Part shown: in pieces, positions 49,428 to 60,892 of the stretch
How the letters are laid out: every line of letters starts with the position of its first letter
How positions within the stretch are numbered: the stretch's first letter is position 1
DNA from: Candidatus Poseidoniaceae archaeon
GTDB taxonomy: Archaea; Thermoplasmatota; Poseidoniia; Poseidoniales; Poseidoniaceae
Reading direction: 5' to 3'
Length of the DNA: 60,892 nt
NCBI GenBank assembly: GCA_938084675.1
Contig: CALKGM010000018.1
Coordinates: forward strand, 1 to 60,892
Made by a program: the position numbers and the translations under genes
The notes under the pieces: generated by a model
Database searches by the model: none
What the model saw: only the letters and a program-made list of their open reading frames with translations
Told to the model about the DNA's origin: nothing

Positions 49428-50996
49428 TCAATAGCCCATATTTTGCTGGCCACAAATAGGACAAAAGCGCCAGTATGGATCGAGACCAATACCGCAATTC
49501 CTGCAGGGAACTCCAGAGCGAATAGTGGGCTGCACCACCGGGGCTTGGGGTTGGTGCCAACCAGGTTGCTGTTGCCAGTTTTGTTGGGGTTGTTGGGGTT
49601 GTTGGGGTTGCCGAGGTTGCTGTTGCCAGTTTTGTTGGGGTTGCTGGGGTTGCTGGGGTTGCTGAGGTTGTTGCTGCCAGTTTTGCTGGGGTTGCTGAGG
49701 ATGTTGTGGAAGAGGTTGTGGACGCTGGGTTACTGGCTGGGGCGCTTGGGTAGGTTGCTGTCCACCACCAAGCGGTTTACGAACTGGAGCGACGGGCTTA
49801 GGCAAAGCTACAGAGCGTTCCCCAGCCGGAGATGATATGAATTCTGATAGCGTAACAACTCCGTCTCCATCCGTATCGGCCTCTGCATGCAATTCGGATG
49901 CTTCCTCAAGGGTCGCACCGGTTGCTTGTGCGAGTTCTTCTACGGATAACGCACCGCTGCTATCCTCATCCGCTGCGATGAAGTGTTCTGCTGCACTAAC
50001 GAATTCTTCTTCTTCCGGCTCATCTTGATCAGATTCTTCTAGAGGAGCAGGGTCGGTAACCTGCATGGTTTCTTCAGCCTGTTCCTCAACTAAAGAGGGA
50101 GTTGCTTCTTCGCTTCCAATTCCGATATCAAAAGCTCCAGCAAACGCATTTTGGGTAGCACGGGCTACTTGCTTTTCGCTTTCAACATTCACGGATTTTT
50201 CGGGGGCAGATTTCTCCTCTATGACGGGCAGTTGGACCGATTCACTTGGAAGCGGAACTGCCACAGGGGCTGGGCTGGGCTCTGGAGTGGGCGTAGCCTT
50301 TGTTGGAATTGGAACTGGTGGCGGTGATGCGCTTGGTAGCGGCACAACGGTCTTTGGGATTGATACAACCGGAGGGGCGGCCTCAGGCAGGACAAGTTCA
50401 GCCGGAGCAGCAGTACCGCTAGCAAGAGAGGGCAAGGGCAGTATGTGCCCACTAACATCGAGGGCCGCATCCAATTCTTTGTTAATGCTAACAAGCACGT
50501 CGACCGATGGTTCTACAGAATCCAAGTGCCCCTGAAGTGTATTCATGTACTTCATGATTTCATCGGCCTGTCCGGTTTGATGAGCTACCGCGAAAATTTT
50601 CATCATCCGCATTGGGTCGGCTAATTGAGTCAACGATTCTTCTTGTTCTGTGGTAATTGATGCAAGACGTGCACCCATTACATCTCCTGATGAATTTGGA
50701 AGACCTAATGCATCAAGCAATGGATCGGGCATGCTCATCAGCGCAAGATGGCCTGCAACGAGATAGTATATTTCGCCACCCTCGCACTGCATGCGCTCGC
50801 TTGCTGCTTCAAAATCAAAGTCACCAGGGCTTAGGACAATATCAGAGAGAAGCTCAAAAAATTGAACCATTGCTTGTTCCCGAGGCATTGACATCAAAGT
50901 GTGAAGCATGTCCGAAGAAGTCGTGGCTCCAAAATAAGCCGCGGCATCATCAACCTCAATGGTTGATTGATCGGAAGAACTTGTCTCGCCAGCCAT
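49428..50996 (-). CDS. EF-hand protein with Gln-rich repeats and C-terminal zinc ribbon
   Basis: A 522-residue soluble protein. The N-terminal helical region (about 12-165, MQCEGGEIYYLVAGHLAL) is not recognised. A Pro/Val-rich linker (about 190-270) leads to an acidic region and a pair of EF-hand loops, DEDSSGALSVEE and DTDGDGVVTLSE (about 345-385). Then comes a Gln/Pro-rich repeat (about 412-482) and a zinc ribbon, CRNCGIGLDPYWRFCPICG (about 499-517). No signal peptide is seen, so the EF-hands may sense cytosolic Ca2+. The start at 50996 is supported by GGGAGGGG 4 bp upstream. It converges on the M29 gene with a 4-bp gap. Function unknown. Confidence 0.85.
   Translation of the reverse strand: MAGETSSSDQSTIEVDDAAAYFGATTSSDMLHTLMSMPREQAMVQFFELLSDIVLSPGDFDFEAASERMQCEGGEIYYLVAGHLALMSMPDPLLDALGLPNSSGDVMGARLASITTEQEESLTQLADPMRMMKIFAVAHQTGQADEIMKYMNTLQGHLDSVEPSVDVLVSINKELDAALDVSGHILPLPSLASGTAAPAELVLPEAAPPVVSIPKTVVPLPSASPPPVPIPTKATPTPEPSPAPVAVPLPSESVQLPVIEEKSAPEKSVNVESEKQVARATQNAFAGAFDIGIGSEEATPSLVEEQAEETMQVTDPAPLEESDQDEPEEEEFVSAAEHFIAADEDSSGALSVEELAQATGATLEEASELHAEADTDGDGVVTLSEFISSPAGERSVALPKPVAPVRKPLGGGQQPTQAPQPVTQRPQPLPQHPQQPQQNWQQQPQQPQQPQQPQQNWQQQPRQPQQPQQPQQNWQQQPGWHQPQAPVVQPTIRSGVPCRNCGIGLDPYWRFCPICGQQNMGY
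49566..49718 (-). repeat. Three 51-bp in-frame Gln-rich repeats
   Basis: The plus-strand TTGCTGTTGCCAGTTTTG recurs at 49566, 49617 and (slightly diverged) 49668, period 51 bp. The copies encode NWQQQP followed by QQP-type units of 17 residues. Nucleotide similarity is high, suggesting recent expansion. Confidence 0.85.
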
Positions 50997-51000
50997 TTTA

Positions 51001-51008
51001 CCCCTCCC
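51001..51008 (-). promoter_or_regulatory. Strong ribosome-binding site of the EF-hand/zinc-ribbon gene
   Basis: Minus-strand GGGAGGGG followed by TAAA and the ATG at 50994-50996. It decides that start over the GTG at 51020. Confidence 0.6.
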
Positions 51009-51072
51009 TATCGTAGCCACTTCGGTCCTCCATTTAAGACCTCACGGATGTTGATATCCAACCTGCATGACC

Positions 51073-54000
51073 TCATCGATTACGAGCCAGATTGAAAATT
51101 GCTCGCGATTGTTCAGCAGACCATCCTGTTTCTTGGAGTTGCATGAGGATACCTCGCTCAAGTTCACCATCACCAACCGCCTCAACGACCCAGTCCACTG
51201 CGGATTCACGGTCATCGGTCTGCCAGTCTTCAAAAATACTCAAATCGACGCTGATTTTCGCTTTACGAACCTTTGCAGATGGTTCTTCTTGGGCTGAAAC
51301 TGACTTTTTCTTAGCGACTTTCTGGACTTCCTTCTTCGCCCCTGGAGGTCCACGGGAAGGTGGTGAACGACCAGGTGGACCAGATGATTGTTGTTGTGAT
51401 GGTGATGAACGTTGCACTGGAGGAGATGTCGGACCCTTTCGTTCAGTTTGCTTTGAGCGGGAAGGTCCTGCAGAAGCCGTACGTGTAGAGGCTGCTGCAG
51501 ACTTACGATCCAGCGACTTGAACACATCATTAGAATCATCATCGTCATCAATAAAGTCATCGTAGTCATCATCCTCATCTTCATCATCATCTTCTCTATT
51601 TGATGCTCGAAGAATCACGAGGAAGACCACAATCACCAACATTCCGATTCCAGAAAGAGCAATCATTAGTGTTCCTCCGCTCATTCCAAGCAATCCATCA
51701 TCGCCATTGCCGTTAGAGGGCGACACATATGGACAACCGTCCGCATATCCATCGGAACCCTTTGGTATGTCAACACACTCGTCTTCGTTATCATAGACTC
51801 CGTCACCGTCAGAATCTCGTTCGGTAATGTGACAACCCTCATCATCAACTTGGTCTTTCAATTGATAGAGGGTTTTGGGGCACAAATCAGCATTGGTCGC
51901 ACCTTCTATGAAAATACCTGGCCATGTAGGGTTTCGGCTTGAATTCCAAGAGGGGTCCCCCCAGTTATCACCGAATCCATCGAAATCAGAGTCCTGCCAT
52001 TGTGTGGCGTCATTTCTTAGATTAACAGGTTCGAATTCATCTCGCCATCCGTCCCCGTCATCGGCGCAGCCAAGATAATCCTCAAACGAGGTCCCGTATT
52101 CAGCAGGGCAATCATCTCCGTTAGTTCCAGAGCTGTTGTCTCCGAATCCGTCACCATCTTGGTCCGACCATTGCGTCCCATCCGTTGGGTAAGCATCTCC
52201 TTGCTCGTCATACCTGAGTCCTGTTTCCGCATCAATATTGTAACTGTAGGCACCCGAATAGCCATCTCCGTCCAAATCGGTATCCAACGCATCTTCGTCG
52301 GTACAACCGTTTGCGAGAATAGGGAAGCCGGGCGGTGTATCGTCGCAAACATCGGAAAGGTCAGAAATCCCATCTCCATCAGAATCACGCTGGGCTTCGG
52401 AACATCCGTTTGCATCTACAACAGCATCTGCGCTAGTTCCAGGGCACGAATCTTCAGGGTCATTAAGCCCGTCACCGTCTGAATCTGACTCTCGCTGTGT
52501 TGCACTGCAGCCATCATTGTCAACGGTTGCACTTGCTGCAGTATCCGCACAGAGGTCAACGTTGTTAGCGACACCATCAGCGTCATCATCAAGTTGAGAT
52601 TCCGCACATCCCTGGTCGTTTACAGATTGGCCCGCTGGTGTTTCAGCACAAGCGTCATCTTGGTTGATAACACCGTCAAGATCTTGGTCTGCTAAATCTA
52701 TAAATCGGCACCCTACTCCAGCAGTTCCGTTGAGTACACCTACTTCTGCAGGACAAACGTCACCTTGGAAACCATTGATTTGGTCGCCAAAGCCGTCCCC
52801 ATCAAGGTCAGCCCATTGCGTAGGCTCAAGAGGGAATTCGTCGATGTTATCGCTCCATGAGTCGCCATCAGAGTCAAGGCACCCACCTGCTGGTTTGGTT
52901 GAATTGCCCCATTCACCAGGGCATCCGTCAAGTGTGAGACCTTGATTGTTCAAGACTGGAGGAGCCCGAACTTGGGGCCTTGAATCAAACTCATTACAGC
53001 CTTCTGAATCAACTTGTTCGGTGGAGTTCACGATGGAACCCCCGCACCAATCAAACGCGTTTTCAATTCCATCCCCGTCATCATCCATGGTTGCATTGTA
53101 AAATTCTGTCCATTCATCGGGGTACCCGTCTTGGTCTGAATCGTTCGCTACAGCAATGTTATTTGGAAAGCTATCCGGGTTGGTTGCATTCATTGAGCTG
53201 TTATCACCGAAGCCGTCCCCGTCACTGTCCGCCCATTGTGTAGGGTCAGTTGGCCACATGTCAGCACCCATAGATTCGTTCCATTCCAATGAATTACCAA
53301 TGTCTGAAGGATCGCTCGCCCCATCTCCATCCGTGTCAAGGCATCCGTTACGGTCAAGGTAAGAACTGCCCCAAACAAAGGGGCAAAAATCACCGTAAAC
53401 ACTGTCTGAATCGTTATCACCAAAACCGTCTCCATCCCTATCTTTGTATTGACTTGCGATGTAGGGGAATTCATCACCTACGGATGGATCGAAAATTGTA
53501 TCACAACAGTCTGGACCGTGATTATCACCATAGGTATCTCCATCACTGTCTAAGGATATCTTCCAGTTATCTGGATATATGTCACCGTCAATATATCCTT
53601 GTCCGTTGTCTGACCAACCATCTTGGTCAGCATCTTCACAACCAAACCGGTCAATCCACGATGTACCAAAGTCGTTACCGCAATCATCAATTTGGTCCGC
53701 AAATCCATCATAGTCGAAATCTGGACATCCATAAAGCCCGTAATACCCTGAGTTGCCTGCTGTGGTAGGACAATCGTCGCCTAATGGCCCGAGTGGATTG
53801 TCCCCGAAATTATCAGAGTCACTATCCATCCATTGATTACCAACTGTTGGCATTGCATCAATGAGGTCAAAGACGAGGTCTCTGTCTTGGTCGGCGTACA
53901 GCCTCAAAACAACAACATCATCGGATGAAGTATCCCAATAGGAAAGATGGACGGTGTTGTTACTGTCAACCATTGCATTCATCGGGGCTGAAGATTCTAT

Positions 54001-57000
54001 GCCGCCAAAAGAAACGCTGAGCCAAGAGGCTGATGCGTTTGTGATGCTGTTGAGGTCAAGTGTGTTGACGGTCACTCTTTGGGTAACGGGCTCACTTGTT
54101 ACGAGGAGCAAATGAGACCCCATGTGGAGAACATCCCACGCCCCATCAACTGCAGCCGCTGGGCGTTCGGCAACCGAGGTCCACGTTGCATCCTCATTCA
54201 TCATGTATAGAGAAGATACGGAATTAGCACGGATAGCCAAAACTGGTTCCGTTCCACCCGTAAGGTCCAACCGATATTCATGATCAGTGCCGCTGGGTTG
54301 AGCGAGTGAATGGCTTTCCCACTCGCTTGAACCGGGATATTGTTCGAACAAGGACAATTCTCCTGTAGAGGTCAAAGTCGCTACCAACAAAGACCCGTTG
54401 GAAAGCAAAGCGGTTGAGATTTGGACATCCAAGTCGGATTGATTCGCAATCCAAGAGGTTTCCAACTGTTGGCCGTCATAGGTCCAAAGAGAGAGATTGG
54501 TTGCGTTACCATCAGAAGTGACCAGAGCAACTGCAAGCTTCCCATCTGGCATGATGAGCGAGGGGTGTTGAGTTGAAACGGCTTGACCTTCCAAGCCGAG
54601 AGAAGTGAGAGACCATCCGCTCGGTCGTTGCGCTAATTCAAGTTGATTCGTCGTGAGCCTGTACACTAGGGAAGGCGCACCTGTTTCATCGATTGAAACC
54701 GAAATAGGTCCACCTAGGGCAGCAGCAGAGCGGACCATTTCGTGTGTCCATCCGGATGCTGATTCTTGGCTAGCAAATATTTGTTGACCCGCCCCTGAAG
54801 TATACGCCAGCATTTGTTGGCCATCGGCATCAAGAGAGGCTCCAAGGAATTGCCCCATGGTTCCCGTGGTGGCTACATCCATCTCTACCGCAGTCATTGA
54901 GGTAGGAGTATGAAGAACCATGTGCATGTTGTCTTCGGTAACAATAATCGGCATCCCAGAGGGGCGAACATCAAAGATGAATTGAGTTGAAGGGTCAATG
55001 GAAGAAACAATGCATTGTTCAACCCATTGACCGATAGGAGTTCCATCCTTCATGTGTTCAAGTTTCATCAGTTTGTGTCCGTCATTATTTGACATCGTGA
55101 AGGCCATTGAAGTTTCTCCACGTGTGGCTGTTCCGAGGTCTAGACCAGTAAGCACACCATTGTACGTAAAGGTGAGATATTCTAAATCGCGTTCCGACAA
55201 AACAGGATAATTCAAACTAAAATCTGTTCCTTCCGATGTATTTCTCATGGAATAAATAATTTCATTCAAGCCATCTGAATTCACATCACCATACCCGGCT
55301 AAGACCGAACCCAGATGTTCTCCGCTAAGTCCTTCAGCGAGCAATTGAGATTCCCCTTGAAGTCCAGTTAAGGAACCAAGGAAAATCTCGAGACTGCCCC
55401 TGCTATCCCCACCGAGTTTGCTGATCAGGATATCGCCAAACCCATCATCGTTTATATCTCCAATTGCTTCAATCGCCCCACCAATTCGAGCGTTTGGTTG
55501 GGAAGAGAGGAGGGTCCAATCCGGCTCCGAAGACATCGCTCCAGTCGACCCATTGTACAACCAAAGTTTTCCTGCACTGAAACCCCCGCCTGAACTGTTG
55601 TACGGCTCAGAAATGATGTGGTCTTCGAGTCCATCTCCGTTAATGTCTTCTAAACATGCAATATTGTGGCCAAACAACCTTCCTTGTTGATTGGACTCAA
55701 CAGTGTGGAATGGAGTCCCATCATAACCGTTTGAAGAACCCTCAAAGTACTCAATTGAAGAATACGAGAGTGCATCATCGTAAGTCCCCGTGTTCCCGAT
55801 AATCAATTCATCAAAACTGTCCCCGTTGATATCGCAAGCTTCCATCGTACGTCCAAACATTTTCCCGTTTGTGGTTTGAGTCAGATTACGCTCCAGTATC
55901 ATGCTACCCGTTTCGAAGCCAAAGACAAGGACTTTCCCGGATTTGTTCTCAGTACCACTAAGGCCATTGCCCCATCCTTGTGCTGAGACTGCCAGTGCAG
56001 AATGACTACCGCTCTGTTCAAGCGAGCTCACAACATCTCCGATACGTTCGTCTCCAGTTCCCGACATGGAGTACATCGGTTGGGAAGTCAGACCATCGGC
56101 ATGGCCAGTGAAAATTTGAACCTGGCCTTGCTGGCCCTCGCTTTGAGTAAGGTTGTACCATCCTGGAACGCCAACTGCTAGGTCTTGGATTCCATCCCCA
56201 TCAAAATCACCAAGGTCGATCCCCATCCCAAAGTGGAATAGATCTCCATCGCCGGCTAAAATAACATCAGGGATTGATGAAAGCCCTGAAATTGAACCGT
56301 GGTAAACATCAACTCTACCGTTGTGTGTATTTCCGAGAAGATCAGCTGTTGGAGTTGCAATAATCAAGTCTGCGAATCCATCTGCGTTCAAGTCACCCAT
56401 CATCATAGAACCTTCAATGGCGTCATCTTCCCCAGTTACAGTGTAGGATGGTGTCGGATTAATCCGACCAGAGTCTTGTCCATCAAGGGAACGAATCAAC
56501 TGAATCGAGAAACTCGTTGGCCCTTGCAATACCGTCGCTACTTGCTCAATGTTGTTGGCATCCAGCCCCATACCGAGTGCTGAACTCGTGCTGGCATCTT
56601 GTGAAAGAACCTGAGATTCATGCTCCCAACCGTCAATTCTCAGGAGGATCACAGAGCCGGATGCGTTGCGGGTGTAGAGAATATGGGCAACACCGTTTGA
56701 ATCAACCTCTAATTCGATGTCAGTGCCTACGGGTCCTGCATCAAGAAGGTACTTTGTCCAGTAATTTCCGCTAAAGTTCACTTGATGTAAAGCACCATCT
56801 TGTGTCCTCATCAACCCCCATTCTAATCCATTCGGCGTGATATCCATTTCCAAATGAGTAGCATTCACGTCCTCAAAAATTGTGCGCGTGTGCCATCTTG
56901 CACCATCCCAGTAATTCGTACTCATTGCAGCATAACGGCCCATTTTCAGGTCGGGGCCATCGGCGTAGAGAACACGTGGACGCTCATTGTCAGTCACTGC

Positions 57001-57459
57001 AATTGCGCAGTCAACAAGTCCGGTTGAATGAGATGCAGTCACATTATCAACGAGCATGGAAGACCAGTAGCCACCTGGGGTATGAACCGCTGTACGAACA
57101 GGACCTTCTTCTGTACTCCAACAGAAATGTTCAGAGTTGTGCCTGGTGAGTTTCATGTCTGGGACACCGTGATGCTCGACTGAAGAATTATTCAACTCAA
57201 CATTCGCCCAGTAATCCAAAGCGGATTCTTCCCGAACAACGGCACTTTCAAGGCCGTCAAACGAAATTACGGTCCCTGCAAAATCATGGCCATCACCGCT
57301 TGAAAGTGTAAATGGAGACGATGATTGGGGGTTTTCTGGAGACTCCTCAAATATCTCACCACCTTGATAATTCACCATTGGAGAAAATGAGGTCAGCAAA
57401 AAAAGCAGGAAAATAAGAACGCTTTTTTGCACTGGAGTTCCAAGAAGAGCACCCGACAT
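51073..57459 (-). CDS. Giant integrin-alpha-like surface protein: FG-GAP propeller, TSP3 stalk, membrane helix, cytosolic tail
   Basis: About 2128 residues. Order: signal peptide (about 8-30); beta-rich N-terminal region; FG-GAP-type calcium-loop repeats (about 335-735), e.g. GDLNADGFADLIIATP, DFDGDGIQDLAVGVPG, DINGDSFDELIIGNTG, DINDDGFGDILISKLG; further propeller-like repeats (about 740-1180); a stalk of at least 20 thrombospondin type-3 units (about 1185-1910) of the type DSDGDGLNDPEDSCPGT; a membrane helix (about 1925-1948); an acidic/Pro-Ser-rich tail and a C-terminal UBA-like three-helix domain ending in LQETGWSAEQSRAIFNLARNR. Calcium would stiffen the stalk. It probably anchors the cell to particles or mediates cell contacts. 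I chose the ATG at 57457-57459; an in-frame upstream start adds 5 residues. Confidence 0.88.
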   Translation of the reverse strand: MSGALLGTPVQKSVLIFLLFLLTSFSPMVNYQGGEIFEESPENPQSSSPFTLSSGDGHDFAGTVISFDGLESAVVREESALDYWANVELNNSSVEHHGVPDMKLTRHNSEHFCWSTEEGPVRTAVHTPGGYWSSMLVDNVTASHSTGLVDCAIAVTDNERPRVLYADGPDLKMGRYAAMSTNYWDGARWHTRTIFEDVNATHLEMDITPNGLEWGLMRTQDGALHQVNFSGNYWTKYLLDAGPVGTDIELEVDSNGVAHILYTRNASGSVILLRIDGWEHESQVLSQDASTSSALGMGLDANNIEQVATVLQGPTSFSIQLIRSLDGQDSGRINPTPSYTVTGEDDAIEGSMMMGDLNADGFADLIIATPTADLLGNTHNGRVDVYHGSISGLSSIPDVILAGDGDLFHFGMGIDLGDFDGDGIQDLAVGVPGWYNLTQSEGQQGQVQIFTGHADGLTSQPMYSMSGTGDERIGDVVSSLEQSGSHSALAVSAQGWGNGLSGTENKSGKVLVFGFETGSMILERNLTQTTNGKMFGRTMEACDINGDSFDELIIGNTGTYDDALSYSSIEYFEGSSNGYDGTPFHTVESNQQGRLFGHNIACLEDINGDGLEDHIISEPYNSSGGGFSAGKLWLYNGSTGAMSSEPDWTLLSSQPNARIGGAIEAIGDINDDGFGDILISKLGGDSRGSLEIFLGSLTGLQGESQLLAEGLSGEHLGSVLAGYGDVNSDGLNEIIYSMRNTSEGTDFSLNYPVLSERDLEYLTFTYNGVLTGLDLGTATRGETSMAFTMSNNDGHKLMKLEHMKDGTPIGQWVEQCIVSSIDPSTQFIFDVRPSGMPIIVTEDNMHMVLHTPTSMTAVEMDVATTGTMGQFLGASLDADGQQMLAYTSGAGQQIFASQESASGWTHEMVRSAAALGGPISVSIDETGAPSLVYRLTTNQLELAQRPSGWSLTSLGLEGQAVSTQHPSLIMPDGKLAVALVTSDGNATNLSLWTYDGQQLETSWIANQSDLDVQISTALLSNGSLLVATLTSTGELSLFEQYPGSSEWESHSLAQPSGTDHEYRLDLTGGTEPVLAIRANSVSSLYMMNEDATWTSVAERPAAAVDGAWDVLHMGSHLLLVTSEPVTQRVTVNTLDLNSITNASASWLSVSFGGIESSAPMNAMVDSNNTVHLSYWDTSSDDVVVLRLYADQDRDLVFDLIDAMPTVGNQWMDSDSDNFGDNPLGPLGDDCPTTAGNSGYYGLYGCPDFDYDGFADQIDDCGNDFGTSWIDRFGCEDADQDGWSDNGQGYIDGDIYPDNWKISLDSDGDTYGDNHGPDCCDTIFDPSVGDEFPYIASQYKDRDGDGFGDNDSDSVYGDFCPFVWGSSYLDRNGCLDTDGDGASDPSDIGNSLEWNESMGADMWPTDPTQWADSDGDGFGDNSSMNATNPDSFPNNIAVANDSDQDGYPDEWTEFYNATMDDDGDGIENAFDWCGGSIVNSTEQVDSEGCNEFDSRPQVRAPPVLNNQGLTLDGCPGEWGNSTKPAGGCLDSDGDSWSDNIDEFPLEPTQWADLDGDGFGDQINGFQGDVCPAEVGVLNGTAGVGCRFIDLADQDLDGVINQDDACAETPAGQSVNDQGCAESQLDDDADGVANNVDLCADTAASATVDNDGCSATQRESDSDGDGLNDPEDSCPGTSADAVVDANGCSEAQRDSDGDGISDLSDVCDDTPPGFPILANGCTDEDALDTDLDGDGYSGAYSYNIDAETGLRYDEQGDAYPTDGTQWSDQDGDGFGDNSSGTNGDDCPAEYGTSFEDYLGCADDGDGWRDEFEPVNLRNDATQWQDSDFDGFGDNWGDPSWNSSRNPTWPGIFIEGATNADLCPKTLYQLKDQVDDEGCHITERDSDGDGVYDNEDECVDIPKGSDGYADGCPYVSPSNGNGDDGLLGMSGGTLMIALSGIGMLVIVVFLVILRASNREDDDEDEDDDYDDFIDDDDDSNDVFKSLDRKSAAASTRTASAGPSRSKQTERKGPTSPPVQRSSPSQQQSSGPPGRSPPSRGPPGAKKEVQKVAKKKSVSAQEEPSAKVRKAKISVDLSIFEDWQTDDRESAVDWVVEAVGDGELERGILMQLQETGWSAEQSRAIFNLARNR

Positions 57460-57506
57460 GATACACACACACACCCCGACCTAGAAAATCGTTGTTCACT
57501 TATTTC

Positions 57507-57556: not shown

Positions 57557-58222
57557 TTGCTTGAGAAAGGGAAACGACTTCGTATCACCGTGGAAGAAGC
57601 CTATCGCCTCATTTTAGCAAACGGCCCTTGGCCGAATATTTCTCTTCTCCAAGCTCAATGCGAACGAGCGGTTCAGGTTATTGCTTGCGACGGAGCCCTT
57701 GACCGCGCCCTGGCTGCAGACCTTCCGGTTGATGTCGTAATTGGAGACATGGATAGCGTTCAAAACATGACGCTGGCAGAATTTCTAAACCAAGGAGGCG
57801 AAGTTGTCGAAATCAAGGACCAAGAATCAAACGATTTTACAAAGGCCGTAAATTATTGTGTTGAAAAAGGGCAGACGAGATTGGTCGTCTTTGGAGGATT
57901 AGGTCATGATCTCGGCCATGAATGGGGAAACATCCTGACGAGTGTTGCTTCTAAACTTCAGATCGAAATGGTGCATGAGGGAAAGAGTATTCGGACCTTG
58001 GAAAAAGATATTTCTTATTCTATAGAAATGACCCCTGGCGAGAAGTTCTCCTTGTTTGCAATTCCATTTTGTGATGGCATCAGCCTCACCGGGTGCTCAT
58101 ATGAATTGCATCAACACCGATTGGAGATGGGAAGTCAGGGCGTTCATAATATTGCCAAGGGAGGGCAAATTCAGCTGTCGTTTGAAGAAGGCGCTCTCGT
58201 GATGATCAAATCTCTTCGGTGA
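57557..58222 (+). CDS. Thiamine pyrophosphokinase
   Basis: A 221-residue enzyme that pyrophosphorylates thiamine to ThDP. Family landmarks: VIACDGALDRAL, VDVVIGDMDSV (Asp pair for Mg), KDQESNDFTKAVN (metal and ATP), GGLGHDLGHEWGNI and the C-terminal substrate-binding barrel GCSYELHQHRLEMGSQGVHN. It would supply the cofactor for the E1 enzyme at 11 kb. The start is uncertain: TTG at 57557 opens the frame, ATGs just upstream are in another frame, and no strong ribosome-binding site is seen. No TPP riboswitch was recognised upstream. Its stop overlaps the convergent DUF4105 gene by 17 bp. Confidence 0.86.
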   Translation: MLEKGKRLRITVEEAYRLILANGPWPNISLLQAQCERAVQVIACDGALDRALAADLPVDVVIGDMDSVQNMTLAEFLNQGGEVVEIKDQESNDFTKAVNYCVEKGQTRLVVFGGLGHDLGHEWGNILTSVASKLQIEMVHEGKSIRTLEKDISYSIEMTPGEKFSLFAIPFCDGISLTGCSYELHQHRLEMGSQGVHNIAKGGQIQLSFEEGALVMIKSLR

Positions 58223-59081
58223 CTGGACCTTTCGGAAGATGATTCCTTAACATCGCTGAATAATCCTCAACGCCATCCCAACTTTGAGCGACCTCATCAA
58301 TTCGGGCCCGCTCAAGTGTGGAATCATATCCGCCCCAATCTTCAATCAATTTGAGTTTGAATGCGGCACGAGGGGTGTGACCTGGGAGGAAATTTCTCCA
58401 CAAGAAAGGGATTCTTCCTGGAGTGACACGGTTGACGATTTGCACAATAGACGTATTGCAAGTAGTTAGCAAGGAATGGTACCACTCAGGGTTCACTGAA
58501 AGTTGATTTAATTTTTGAATCATTCCAAGAAGAAGCATCTTATCTTTCCCTGGCGGAGTGATGGCTCTGAACATGTAATCCTTGTTTTGGCGAGCATGCG
58601 TTCGAAGCCCCGTCACGTCGCGTTCAAACCCAACCAGAAGATAGAGTTCATACGCTCGCCACAGCCCATCCCACGGATGGTACCGCTCACCCTTTTCACG
58701 GCGGGTCTCGAAAGAAAAAGAGAGACATGTTCCGCATTCAAATTCAAAGGTGAGATAGGTATGAGCCATTCCTTTTATCGCATGGAAATGATCTACCATG
58801 AACCAAACATCCTTGAGTTCATCCAAACGGACGTTGACCTCTTCTTCCCATCGCTCATCACGGTCCCGAGTGGTTCGCCAGTGGAAATCCCGAACCATGT
58901 TGAATGTAATATCGTTGCCATCGACTTGAGCAGTCGTGAGGTGTTCACAATCGGCTGCCCAAATAAGGTCCAATTTGGGCCGAAGTGGGCGAATACGAGT
59001 CCACCAAACATATGCGAGACGAAGGAAAAACAACCCAGCCAGTGCGATGATTACAGCCAGTACTATTTCTTTGAAGTCCAT
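58206..59081 (-). CDS. DUF4105 protein (Lnb N-terminal domain-like) with membrane anchor
   Basis: A 291-residue protein. One N-terminal hydrophobic helix (about 5-26, VLAVIIALAGLFFLRLAY) is followed by a soluble domain matching DUF4105: MVRDFHWRTTRDRDERW, IKGMAHTYLTFEF (conserved His), SFSFETRREKGERY, ELYLLVGFERDV, HARQNKDYMF and LLTTCNTSIVQIVNRV (conserved Cys). Bacterial DUF4105 is the N-terminal domain of Lnb, which transfers acyl chains during lipoprotein modification. The positively charged RIRPLRPK after the helix would by the positive-inside rule place the domain in the cytosol, which is odd for that role. It overlaps tpk tail-to-tail and begins 5 bp after the next gene's stop. Confidence 0.9.
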   Translation of the reverse strand: MDFKEIVLAVIIALAGLFFLRLAYVWWTRIRPLRPKLDLIWAADCEHLTTAQVDGNDITFNMVRDFHWRTTRDRDERWEEEVNVRLDELKDVWFMVDHFHAIKGMAHTYLTFEFECGTCLSFSFETRREKGERYHPWDGLWRAYELYLLVGFERDVTGLRTHARQNKDYMFRAITPPGKDKMLLLGMIQKLNQLSVNPEWYHSLLTTCNTSIVQIVNRVTPGRIPFLWRNFLPGHTPRAAFKLKLIEDWGGYDSTLERARIDEVAQSWDGVEDYSAMLRNHLPKGPVTEEI

Positions 59082-59085
59082 ACCA

Positions 59086-60387
59086 TCACCACTTATGCCA
59101 GATTCTCCAATCTTGGTCCCACCAATCTACAGAGCCGTCCGGATGTTGGCGCCATAACATACCTTGGTCATCAACAGTTGTGGGAAGTCCCTGTGCGTCA
59201 GGAGAACCGTCGGCGAGAATCTGTGGCTCGGGGCCCAAATTAGGCAGTTCTAACTGTTCTGGTTCTCGTATTCTAACCAGCATCAAAAAGACAAGAACCG
59301 TTACGATAAGAGCCAAGATACCAATTGAAATCCAACCAACAGATGTCGTCTCTGTTTCAGGTCCGAGTGAAGTTGATGGAAGTGATGCACTCTCATTTTC
59401 CATCAGTTCTAACGAAGGAAGGCGAATGAGGTTCGTTCCTTGAGTTGATGAAATCATTTTCTCAGTGATGATTTCTAATGTGACAAGATGGGCCCCCGGA
59501 CCCAAATTTGAACAATCAAAGGAGGAACTGTTGACACCTGATATGACCGTACCTTGAACCGACCATATCTTCGCCATTGAGGAATAATCCATGGATTGTT
59601 CGGACTCCACCATTACAGAGCAAGGTGTGTCCGTTGTGTTTTGGTGGCCCATTACCTTCAGAGCGAAATCTGGAGGAGGGCGATTGAAAATTGTAAAGTT
59701 CAACGAGGATTCTGTAGTTTGACCCAGCCCGTTGCGATAGGTTTCTTTCAGCTCATAATCTCCGGCAGGCCAAGATGAACAATCCAGAGATTGCTGAGTC
59801 TCAAGAACACTGAACGGGGCGCCGGTAAAGGTACGCACTCCAGTTTCACCGTATCTCGGCCCGGTTTCATCGGAGAAATCACGATTAATGGTGCAGGTTT
59901 CTCCTGTTTGGATGCTTTGTCCGGCTTCTAGGTCGAGGTGAACCAGTGGGACTTGCAATGCAGGTCTGAGCAGGAAAGTCGGAAGAGGATAAGTGGCGAT
60001 AAAATCACCATCTCGGTCAAAGAAATCTAATCTTAAATCATGCTCTCCCGCAGACCAGGAATCGTAGACTAAACTGATGTTGGTTTGAGACTCAAATGCT
60101 AACTCTTGAACGACCAATACCTCTCGCTCTTTATGCAGTCCACGTAACTTGACGATCATCTCGTTCTGGAATTGGGTGGAATTGAGAACAACAACAACAC
60201 GTACAGCATCAATATCTCCGTCTTGGTTGGTATCAATCGTATCATTGCGTAAGGCAAGTAGCGTCAAACCTTGCTCGGCAAGACGTTCGTCAGGCGTAAG
60301 TTCAGCCGAGCCGTTCATCGTTGGGATGCAACAGAGGAACAGAAGCAATGTGAAGGCAAGTGCAGTTGTTTTGGAGGTTTCACTCAT
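59086..60387 (-). CDS. Secreted Ig-like surface protein with membrane helix and Trp-rich cytosolic tail
   Basis: A 433-residue protein: signal peptide (about 1-28, TTALAFTLLLFLCCIPTMNG), three or four Ig/CARDB-like domains with paired Cys, one membrane helix (about 352-374, ISIGILALIVTVLVFLML) and an 80-residue tail. The tail ends in an unusual Trp-rich motif (QHPDGSVDWWDQDWRIWHKW) that may be a docking site. N-terminal acidic DTNQDGDIDAV resembles a dockerin-type calcium loop. The start at 60387 is supported by GGAGGTGA 5 bp upstream and overlaps the upstream gene's TGA by 8 bp. Probable adhesin or envelope component; function not established. Confidence 0.82.
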   Translation of the reverse strand: MSETSKTTALAFTLLLFLCCIPTMNGSAELTPDERLAEQGLTLLALRNDTIDTNQDGDIDAVRVVVVLNSTQFQNEMIVKLRGLHKEREVLVVQELAFESQTNISLVYDSWSAGEHDLRLDFFDRDGDFIATYPLPTFLLRPALQVPLVHLDLEAGQSIQTGETCTINRDFSDETGPRYGETGVRTFTGAPFSVLETQQSLDCSSWPAGDYELKETYRNGLGQTTESSLNFTIFNRPPPDFALKVMGHQNTTDTPCSVMVESEQSMDYSSMAKIWSVQGTVISGVNSSSFDCSNLGPGAHLVTLEIITEKMISSTQGTNLIRLPSLELMENESASLPSTSLGPETETTSVGWISIGILALIVTVLVFLMLVRIREPEQLELPNLGPEPQILADGSPDAQGLPTTVDDQGMLWRQHPDGSVDWWDQDWRIWHKW

Positions 60388-60892
60388 TGCCTTCACCTCC
60401 AGGAGATAATGGCAATGGGGGCAATTCGTCAATTGGAATAAGTCTCGGTTCGGTAGGGGCTTGTAGGAAATCCGTTTGGTCAGACTCCAATTCTTTTTCA
60501 AAGGCCAGTTGCTCCATCAAGATCGCTCGTTCTTTCGTGGTGCGCACGACAAGTGCTGCGGCTGCGCCGAAGATGAAGCCTAGACCAACGATAAGGTATG
60601 TGAGCCATGAGGCGGCAGGGTCTTCTCCCATGATAGCGATTGCCGCTGCGAATTCACCGTAGTCATTTGACCAACCGTCCCCGTTGTTATCGACACATCC
60701 TTGTAAATCTCGTTTGGAGGTGCCAAATTCATCCGGGCAATCATCTCGTAGAGCACCAAGGGGAAGGTCGCCAAAGCCATCTTGATCGGAATCTTTCCAT
60801 TGCAGGGATTCCGTTGGGAATGCATCACCGGAACCAAAGGGATGAGCTGGCCATGATTCTGTCGGGTCGGACCAACCATCTCCATCCGTATC
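60380..60892 (-). CDS. TSP3-repeat surface protein, 5' end outside window
   Basis: The reading frame enters from the right edge and ends with TGA at 60380. The visible 170 residues comprise TSP3 units (DTDGDGWSDPTESWP, DSDQDGFGDLPLGALRDDCP, DNNGDGWSNDYGEF), a membrane helix (SWLTYLIVGLGFIFGAAAAL) and a 60-residue cytosolic tail rich in Glu and Pro (ends SPGGEGNE). It has the same stalk-helix-tail plan as the giant protein at 51-57 kb. Its stop overlaps the ATG of the downstream gene, so the two are probably translated together. Confidence 0.88.
   Translation of the reverse strand, partial: DTDGDGWSDPTESWPAHPFGSGDAFPTESLQWKDSDQDGFGDLPLGALRDDCPDEFGTSKRDLQGCVDNNGDGWSNDYGEFAAAIAIMGEDPAASWLTYLIVGLGFIFGAAAALVVRTTKERAILMEQLAFEKELESDQTDFLQAPTEPRLIPIDELPPLPLSPGGEGNE
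60393..60400 (-). promoter_or_regulatory. Ribosome-binding site at the junction of two surface genes
   Basis: Minus-strand GGAGGTGA, 5 nt before the ATG at 60385-60387 and inside the last codons of the upstream gene. It sets the start of the 433-residue protein and suggests coupling. Confidence 0.6.

Follow-up and report, generated by a model that had tools for sequence, protein, structure and literature searches.

A stalked surface protein of Poseidoniales with an integrin-type propeller and a conserved cytosolic domain

Does a gene whose product is laid out like an integrin alpha chain provide a marine archaeon with a link between surfaces outside the cell and partners inside it? For Poseidoniales, which are abundant surface-ocean archaea, the attachment to particles and algae has been ascribed to archaella, flotillin and thrombospondin genes, all of them proposals (PMC6461757, PMC6336850). 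Searches among open-licence PMC papers listed no title or abstract that concerns the protein described here, and the sole paper listed that contains both Poseidoniales and FG-GAP deals, in its passages on them, with ice-binding proteins (PMC9957290).

The window (i.e., the whole stretch of 60,892 nucleotides that was analysed) comes from a genome of the Poseidoniaceae (Marine Group IIa, MGIIa), and the gene occupies one uninterrupted open frame on its minus strand. The original prediction had ended the gene at 57459, which corresponds to Met6 and is a plausible start, and the span that it gave is a real open frame. The features of the gene are:

51073..57474 (-), stalked propeller receptor gene, 2133 aa; likely start 57459
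57382..57459 (-), signal-peptide-like hydrophobic N-terminus; hydropathy highest over residues 9-27
56440..57372 (-), N-terminal region of beta repeats and probable propeller; residues 35-345, all-beta in the model
55204..56439 (-), integrin-type FG-GAP propeller region; residues 346-757, seven-repeat register with six calcium-type loops
53902..55203 (-), third region of beta repeats, likewise a probable propeller; residues 758-1191, internal repeats at E 4.8e-7
51724..53901 (-), stalk of TSP3-like Dx[DN]xDG motifs, containing 28 Cys; residues 1192-1917, from motif count
51613..51669 (-), membrane helix; residues 1936-1954, from hydropathy
51265..51612 (-), cytosolic linker, an acidic run followed by a Pro/Ser-rich and basic part; residues 1955-2070
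51076..51264 (-), conserved cytosolic three-helix domain; residues 2071-2133

Computation shows the order to be a head, a TSP3-like stalk, one membrane helix, an acidic and then Pro/Ser-rich linker, and a C-terminal three-helix domain. That there is a single membrane helix, as first proposed, agrees with the hydropathy profile, in which residues 1936-1954 form the only hydrophobic helix apart from the N-terminal signal segment, and a tail of 179 aa follows it. This organization is not peculiar to one genome: the 33 complete sequences, drawn from two families, are 2018-2232 aa long and have the membrane helix and the tail, and the linker retains an acidic 30-mer in 33 of 35 complete tails.

Several lines of evidence identify the center of the head as a propeller with FG-GAP calcium loops. 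The FG-GAP family (PF01839) matches the whole protein at E 2e-18 (66.2 bits against a cut-off of 22.1) and residues 351-757 alone at E 3.7e-34. Residues 346-757 contain five strict Dx[DN]xDG motifs, against a mean of 0.07 and a maximum of two in 1000 shuffles, and the sequence repeats about every 62 aa, giving six repeats with a loop and one without; these six loops are kept in 24 to 33 of the 33 sequences. The best match in a PDB sequence search is integrin alpha-IIb (4.4e-13, residues 589-742). Structure prediction, which had been proposed as a check on the propeller, returned a confident all-beta head (AlphaFold2, pLDDT 85) that, searched whole with Foldseek, strongly matches integrin alpha headpieces, with target TM values up to 0.71 for those of integrin alpha-5; the seven blades are scored from repeat spacing and Foldseek rather than from a count on coordinates. 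The head is larger than had been described: two mutually homologous repeat regions, which had gone unnoticed, flank the integrin-type region on either side (hhalign E 1.4e-6, probability 90), and both are probably propellers.

The stalk could be assigned less uniformly. Its strict Dx[DN]xDG motifs number 17, compared with 0.98 by shuffling (maximum 5), and the NCBIfam PA1041-family gives a partial match at 1.3e-11, far under the family cut-off. The case for the long TSP3 stalk of the original prediction is weaker than stated there: it has the support of its motifs and of these partial matches, but Pfam TSP_3 does not match this copy at E<=5 and reaches three of the four orthologues tested at sub-threshold levels.

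The tail is where the protein is best conserved relative to its head. Conservation was calculated from the 33 complete sequences selected by head and not by tail; earlier figures were dropped because the loci behind them had been found through a tail pattern. Tail helices 2-3 have a mean pairwise identity of 0.65, whereas the three head regions lie at 0.24-0.36, the membrane helix at 0.27 and the linker at 0.38, which argues that the cytosolic domain is, by sequence identity, under tighter constraint than the head. (The stalk, at 0.54, is on a par with the whole tail domain, at 0.51, but its figure is inflated by repeats.) The tail is conserved among orthologues and the head is predicted as all-beta, so neither of the two outcomes that the original prediction had named as refuting it was seen. 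It is modeled as a confident three-helix bundle, with helices at pLDDT about 94-96 and the final residues at 89, and in 292 genomes sampled from the phylum it was matched solely in Poseidoniales. Neither Pfam nor PDB searches produced a significant match (best PDB sequence match, E 0.82), Foldseek gave weak fold matches, including several to PEX14 N-terminal domains at E 3.7 or worse, and no family was found for the domain in this analysis.

A propeller head on a stalk of calcium type, combined with a tail that is conserved on the cytosolic side, points to a receptor-like link from the outside to an inner partner. We consider it reasonably probable that the protein is a stalked receptor for calcium-dependent adhesion or recognition that is coupled to the cytosol. 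Judging from its motifs, the protein would bind calcium, and seawater calcium would fold and stiffen the head and stalk. The head, held off the membrane, could then bind a surface ligand, be it a glycan, a particle, phytoplankton or another cell, while the C-terminal helical domain, on its flexible linker, would dock a cytosolic partner, such that binding outside might be coupled to localization, clustering or a signal inside. The adhesion and signaling that had been suggested for the locus thus stay plausible, although North Sea cells are described as mostly free-living (PMC6864105), which speaks against adhesion.

An alternative that we regard as possible, if unlikely, is that the protein serves structure or nutrient capture: its propellers would collect polymers or keep enzymes close to the membrane, and its tail would anchor, sort or organize the envelope, with no signal being passed. 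Poseidoniales are known for the degradation of proteins and saccharides (PMC9258230; PMC6336850), and in one MGIIb genus (g12) the same tail domain is carried by a subtilase and by a plain TSP3 stalk protein, as might be true of an anchoring or sorting module. Its occurrence on these other ectodomains indicates that the domain is a mobile cytosolic module in its own right. If the tail were an anchor, however, it would hardly require a cytosolic domain of 60 residues that is better conserved than the head; and because the domain is single-copy in the window's own genome, it is not a general anchor there.

The neighboring genes are:

49428..51020 (-), EF-hand/zinc-ribbon protein, candidate cytosolic partner; next gene downstream of the receptor
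57557..58222 (+), thiamine diphosphokinase (TIGR01378, 6.8e-34); divergent neighbor
58206..59081 (-), Lnb_N (PF13387) protein with an N-terminal hydrophobic segment; present in 29/39 loci with room
59086..60501 (-), surface protein, Trp-rich at its C-terminus, that has signal-like and membrane segments; present in 28/37 loci with room
60380..60892 (-), second TSP3-like stalk protein, C-terminal part; ends at the contig edge

Three other surface proteins and an EF-hand protein had been predicted around the receptor, and this is what the locus contains: three products have hydrophobic membrane-type segments (the second stalk protein being 786-898 aa long in five relatives), and the EF-hand protein has no hydrophobic segment. 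A survey of the neighborhood bore out one pair of genes more than the rest. The receptor and the EF-hand/zinc-ribbon gene, adjacent in 34 of 36 loci, are the most constant pair, whereas the Lnb_N and surface-protein genes are less regularly present; moreover, the surface gene occurs in two genomes that lack the receptor (G061 and G095), and in six MGIIa genomes it is the receptor that occurs and the surface gene that is lacking, which weakens the view of the whole neighborhood as one system. The thiamine diphosphokinase gene is divergent in 40/40 loci and is probably unrelated to the receptor in function.

Two EF-hand families match the EF-hand/zinc-ribbon protein at scores above the Pfam cut-off, and its zinc-ribbon matches fall short of it. 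A motif scan, whose strict pattern misses loops visible in L060, recovered EF-hand loops in 25 of the 31 partner proteins that are complete. The receptor head was matched in 50 of the 58 MGIIa genomes sampled and, in the order, in 46 of 78 genomes (8 of 40 in MGIIb). The partner gene is present in 42 of these 46 receptor-bearing genomes: 42 genomes have both genes, four the receptor only, one the partner only and 31 neither. Within MGIIb the corresponding counts are 7/1/1/31 (Fisher p 3e-6, uncorrected for phylogeny and linkage), and two linked genes can be gained or lost as a single block. Archaellin shows no such association with the receptor (in 40 MGIIb genomes, three with both, five with the receptor only, seven with archaellin only and 25 with neither; Fisher p 0.39), so a link with the archaellum is not supported. 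The tail domain also occurs in two genomes, G083 and G087, in which the EF-hand/zinc-ribbon gene was not found, and this argues against its product as a partner that the tail must have; as a functional partner of the receptor it is the strongest candidate, but it need not be the protein that holds the tail domain.

A more ambitious form of the receptor reading, which we hold to be rather doubtful, is that Poseidoniales possess their own transmembrane system for sensing surfaces. Contact would be relayed by a receptor with three propellers, the central one of integrin type, through a new three-helix module to cytosolic machinery including the calcium-/zinc-binding protein, and the module would also have been transferred to a protease and a further stalk protein. 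If true, adhesion signaling of the outside-in kind would have an independent counterpart in archaea. The locus offers one concrete receptor, with a candidate partner adjacent, for the question of how Poseidoniales attach; and although MGII is described as uncultured (PMC6864105), the receptor, its cytosolic domain and the candidate partner are accessible as recombinant proteins.

The tail had been called UBA-like, but that it is such a domain and recruits ubiquitin-like proteins is very improbable. The tail model is a small three-helix bundle, its Gly-Trp turn recalls the MGF loop characteristic of UBA, and two of 27 tails gave a chance-level Pfam match to MDY2_C (best E 0.051). But in UBA that loop connects helices 1 and 2, and the Gly-Trp turn sits between tail helices 2 and 3. 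A search with the UBA profile (PF00627) at E<=10 listed four places in the window's own genome, the tail not among them; the seven Pfam families listed for 27 tails do not include UBA; and UBA is absent from the descriptions of all 43 PDB matches that Foldseek gave at E<=10.

That the protein is a true archaeal homologue of integrin alpha, forming a heterodimer with a beta-like subunit, is scarcely credible: all 60 PDB sequence matches listed are integrin alpha chains and integrins appear from the third rank downward in the fold search, but that match list is biased because solved FG-GAP structures are mostly integrins, GFFxR occurs in none of 41 rows (some of which end before the tail), and the VWA/beta-I domain (PF00092), found in 11 of 14 control genomes, has no match at E<=0.01 in the window's own genome (91.6% complete). 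Integrin-type propellers are, in addition, already reported from bacteria (PMC3192720).

The likeness to integrin alpha holds as an architectural analogy and fails as membership. As in integrin alpha, an FG-GAP propeller (PF01839) with Dx[ND]xDG loops is followed by an extracellular leg, one membrane helix and a cytosolic part. The receptor differs in that six of its seven repeats have a calcium-type loop, in having two additional regions of beta repeats, a TSP3-like stalk in the position of the leg (Pfam matched none of the Ig-like thigh and calf families) and a folded, conserved tail domain, and in lacking the GFFxR of the KxGFFxR juxtamembrane motif. With the TSP3 repeats of thrombospondin and bacterial TSP3 linkers (PF02412; NCBIfam PA1041, MtsC) the stalk shares tandem Asp-rich calcium-type loops and cysteines that act as a spacer, but its profile matches are weak, no L-lectin (the C-terminal family of thrombospondin) or EGF family was matched in the receptor by Pfam, and the receptor is membrane-anchored. 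The thrombospondin genes of Rinke et al. (PMC6461757) belong to the same order and are regarded as adhesion factors; the passages on them mention neither a propeller head nor a membrane helix, nor a tail that is conserved. Also prokaryotic are the bacterial integrin-type (PMC3192720) and VCBS/FG-GAP (PMC8023676) propellers, described as having one calcium loop per blade and, often, a signal sequence and several domains; in contrast, the propeller of the receptor is part of a protein of ~2100 aa with a conserved cytosolic domain, and its gene order is kept across an archaeal order.

Computation resolves the anatomy of the receptor. It is encoded by a single open frame of 2133 aa (51073-57474, minus strand) on contig C18, which the window covers entirely, of a 1.94 Mb genome that is 91.6% complete; and it runs from a signal segment (residues 9-27) through a head of about 1160 residues, a stalk of 726 and, as originally predicted, one membrane helix (residues 1936-1954), to a tail of 179 residues. 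The same genome holds a second FG-GAP-bearing open frame of 1454 aa elsewhere (G000:C47:7079-7150, locus L005). It has no archaellin match, versus matches in the other 37 sampled f1 genomes, which reflects either an assembly gap or loss.

The calcium loops and propeller fold envisaged for the head find support at several levels. Pfam recognizes FG-GAP repeats (2e-18 for the whole protein, 3.7e-34 for a scan limited to residues 351-757), and six calcium-type loops, starting at residues 361, 423, 548, 610, 673 and 730, recur with a period of about 62 residues, one repeat being without a loop. Of 33 complete sequences, 32, 31, 32, 24, 33 and 33, respectively, retain these loops. An AlphaFold2 model of the head (residues 35-1200, 36 sequences) is all-beta, with a mean pLDDT of 85 and a pTM of 0.66. 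When this model was compared with the PDB by Foldseek, the first two matches were chains of CPSF-160 and spliceosome complexes, which are multi-propeller proteins (TM 0.15-0.18), followed by integrin alpha-5 (E 9.3e-15, target TM 0.68), which also gave the highest target TM (0.71) among the best 50 of 1254 matches. A PDB sequence search with the receptor agrees: the best 60 of 63 matches were all integrin alpha chains (top E 4.4e-13, residues 589-742). By hhalign, the stretches on either side of the FG-GAP repeats share homology (E 1.4e-6, probability 90), but neither has detectable homology with the repeats between them (E 0.085 and 0.1); from sequence and model, we read both as probable propellers.

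Stalk residues 1192-1917 contain 28 cysteines and 17 Dx[DN]xDG motifs; shuffled sequences average 0.98 such motifs. Partial NCBIfam matches, all far below cut-off, were to the PA1041 and TraB families, which we take to carry TSP3-type repeats, and to the MtsC family, whose model name suggests the same. The array of calcium-type motifs and these partial matches speak for the proposed long TSP3 stalk, but Pfam TSP_3 does not match the window receptor at E<=5, and matches three of four tested orthologues below the family cut-off; 'TSP3-like' is a fair label, with TSP3 proper not established.

An acidic run directly behind the membrane helix, present in 33 of 35 complete tails, leads into a Pro/Ser-rich linker and then a domain of about 60 residues at the protein's end, modelled as a three-helix bundle (pLDDT ~94-96 across most of the helices; mean 81.8 including the linker). 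Among 33 complete orthologues, gathered by the head, this tail is conserved: mean pairwise identity is 0.65 in helices 2-3 and 0.51 over the whole domain, against 0.36 in the FG-GAP region and 0.30 and 0.24 in the other two head regions; the linker reaches 0.38 and the membrane helix 0.27, and the stalk's 0.54 is inflated by its Asp/Gly repeats. Ten columns are invariant in an alignment of 27 tails. The tail had been called UBA-like, a label that we drop: the UBA model does not match it at E<=10, and nothing significant emerged from a fold search (best E 2.7), Pfam (0.051) or PDB sequences (0.82).

The tail profile matches 49 of 292 phylum genomes, all 49 in the Poseidoniales, and has one match at E<=0.1 in the receptor's own genome. 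A tail-pattern search of genome contigs matched 155 stretches, 147 of them confirmed; in the best 80, titles that give a group finer than Euryarchaeota point to Poseidonia, Poseidoniaceae or Poseidoniales, with the sole exception of L145 (CALDQY010000037.1). This receptor-bearing locus is titled uncultured Rhodobiaceae bacterium, probably a mislabel. Of 58 genomes from the window's family, 50 have a head match, the remainder being three genomes 57-80% complete and all five sampled from one MGIIa genus, g5 (G004, G014, G022, G030, G043), where there was either loss or strong divergence. In the order sample the head is matched in 46 of 78 genomes (38/38 in f1, which here includes no g5 genome, and 8/40 in f2). 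Going by group names and genome sizes, we equate f1, to which the window's organism belongs, with Marine Group IIa (MGIIa) and f2 with MGIIb.

Judging from its occurrence in f2 genus g12, the tail domain moves between proteins. G083 and G087 have two tail matches each, and neither the head nor the EF-hand/zinc-ribbon (EF/zinc) gene was found in them. In both, one copy ends a protein of 1457-1458 aa; by Pfam, the G087 protein is a subtilase that also carries CARDB and NEW3 domains, and its G083 counterpart resembles it. The other G083 copy ends a stalk with a TSP_3 match just above cut-off, and the fourth copy (L167) adjoins a run of N; the remaining two sampled g12 genomes were unmatched by the tail profile.

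Tail-ended subtilase and TSP3 stalk proteins of MGIIb genus g12, head not found
L164, 4605-8978
L165, 3624-8000
L166, 2-979

Genes that adjoin or lie near the receptor include the following.

49428-51020, minus strand: EF/zinc gene
57557-58222, plus strand: thiamine diphosphokinase
58206-59081, minus strand: Lnb, a PF13387-bearing protein
59086-60501, minus strand: surface protein

Across 40 regions, thiamine diphosphokinase is always divergent from and adjoining the receptor (40/40). Where loci leave room, the gene immediately downstream and in the same orientation is EF/zinc in 34 of 36, the exceptions being L042, which has the gene but a receptor frame broken by N, and L078, where it was not seen. 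Within the proposed locus of surface and EF-hand genes, this neighbour is the most constant; Lnb (29/39) and the surface gene (28/37) are less so. At its C-terminus the surface protein has a Trp-rich motif (LWRQHPDGSVDWWDQDWRIWHKW in the window), and visual inspection shows a similar one in L045, L050 and L074; it is perhaps another cytosolic module. In the 78 genomes, receptor and EF/zinc N-domain occur together in 42, the receptor alone in four, EF/zinc alone in one and neither in 31; for the surface gene the counts are 40, six, four and 28. Of the genomes that break the EF/zinc pairing, G008, G104 and G065 (which has a tail match) are interrupted by contig ends or N, and contig size suggests the same for G021 and G057. 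Co-occurrence and adjacency therefore make the receptor and EF/zinc protein, whose complete versions carry a zinc-ribbon pattern in 31/31 and a strict EF-loop pattern in 25/31, the tightest pair of the locus. Such pairing does not prove contact, because linked genes are gained or lost jointly and the tail exists without the EF/zinc gene in g12.

With moderate confidence, we propose that the protein is a stalked receptor that calcium would stiffen, whose head would bind a surface outside the cell and whose helical module may dock a partner inside, perhaps passing on a signal. Integrin-type propellers are already known in bacteria (PMC3192720), FG-GAP/VCBS propellers group in a supercluster whose core is prokaryotic (PMC8023676), and thrombospondin genes and calcium-binding families are recorded in Poseidoniales (PMC6461757; PMC9258230); the relevant portions of these four papers mention neither the receptor nor its tail. 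The integrin-alpha likeness of the original prediction holds at the level of architecture, but we do not file the protein as an integrin. Three negative results set it apart from that family: no Pfam match to integrin leg domains, no GFFxR motif in 41 aligned rows, some of which stop short of the tail, and no VWA domain at E<=0.01 in the receptor's own genome. In its proposed mode of action, the receptor would work like an integrin alpha chain or a stalked adhesin.
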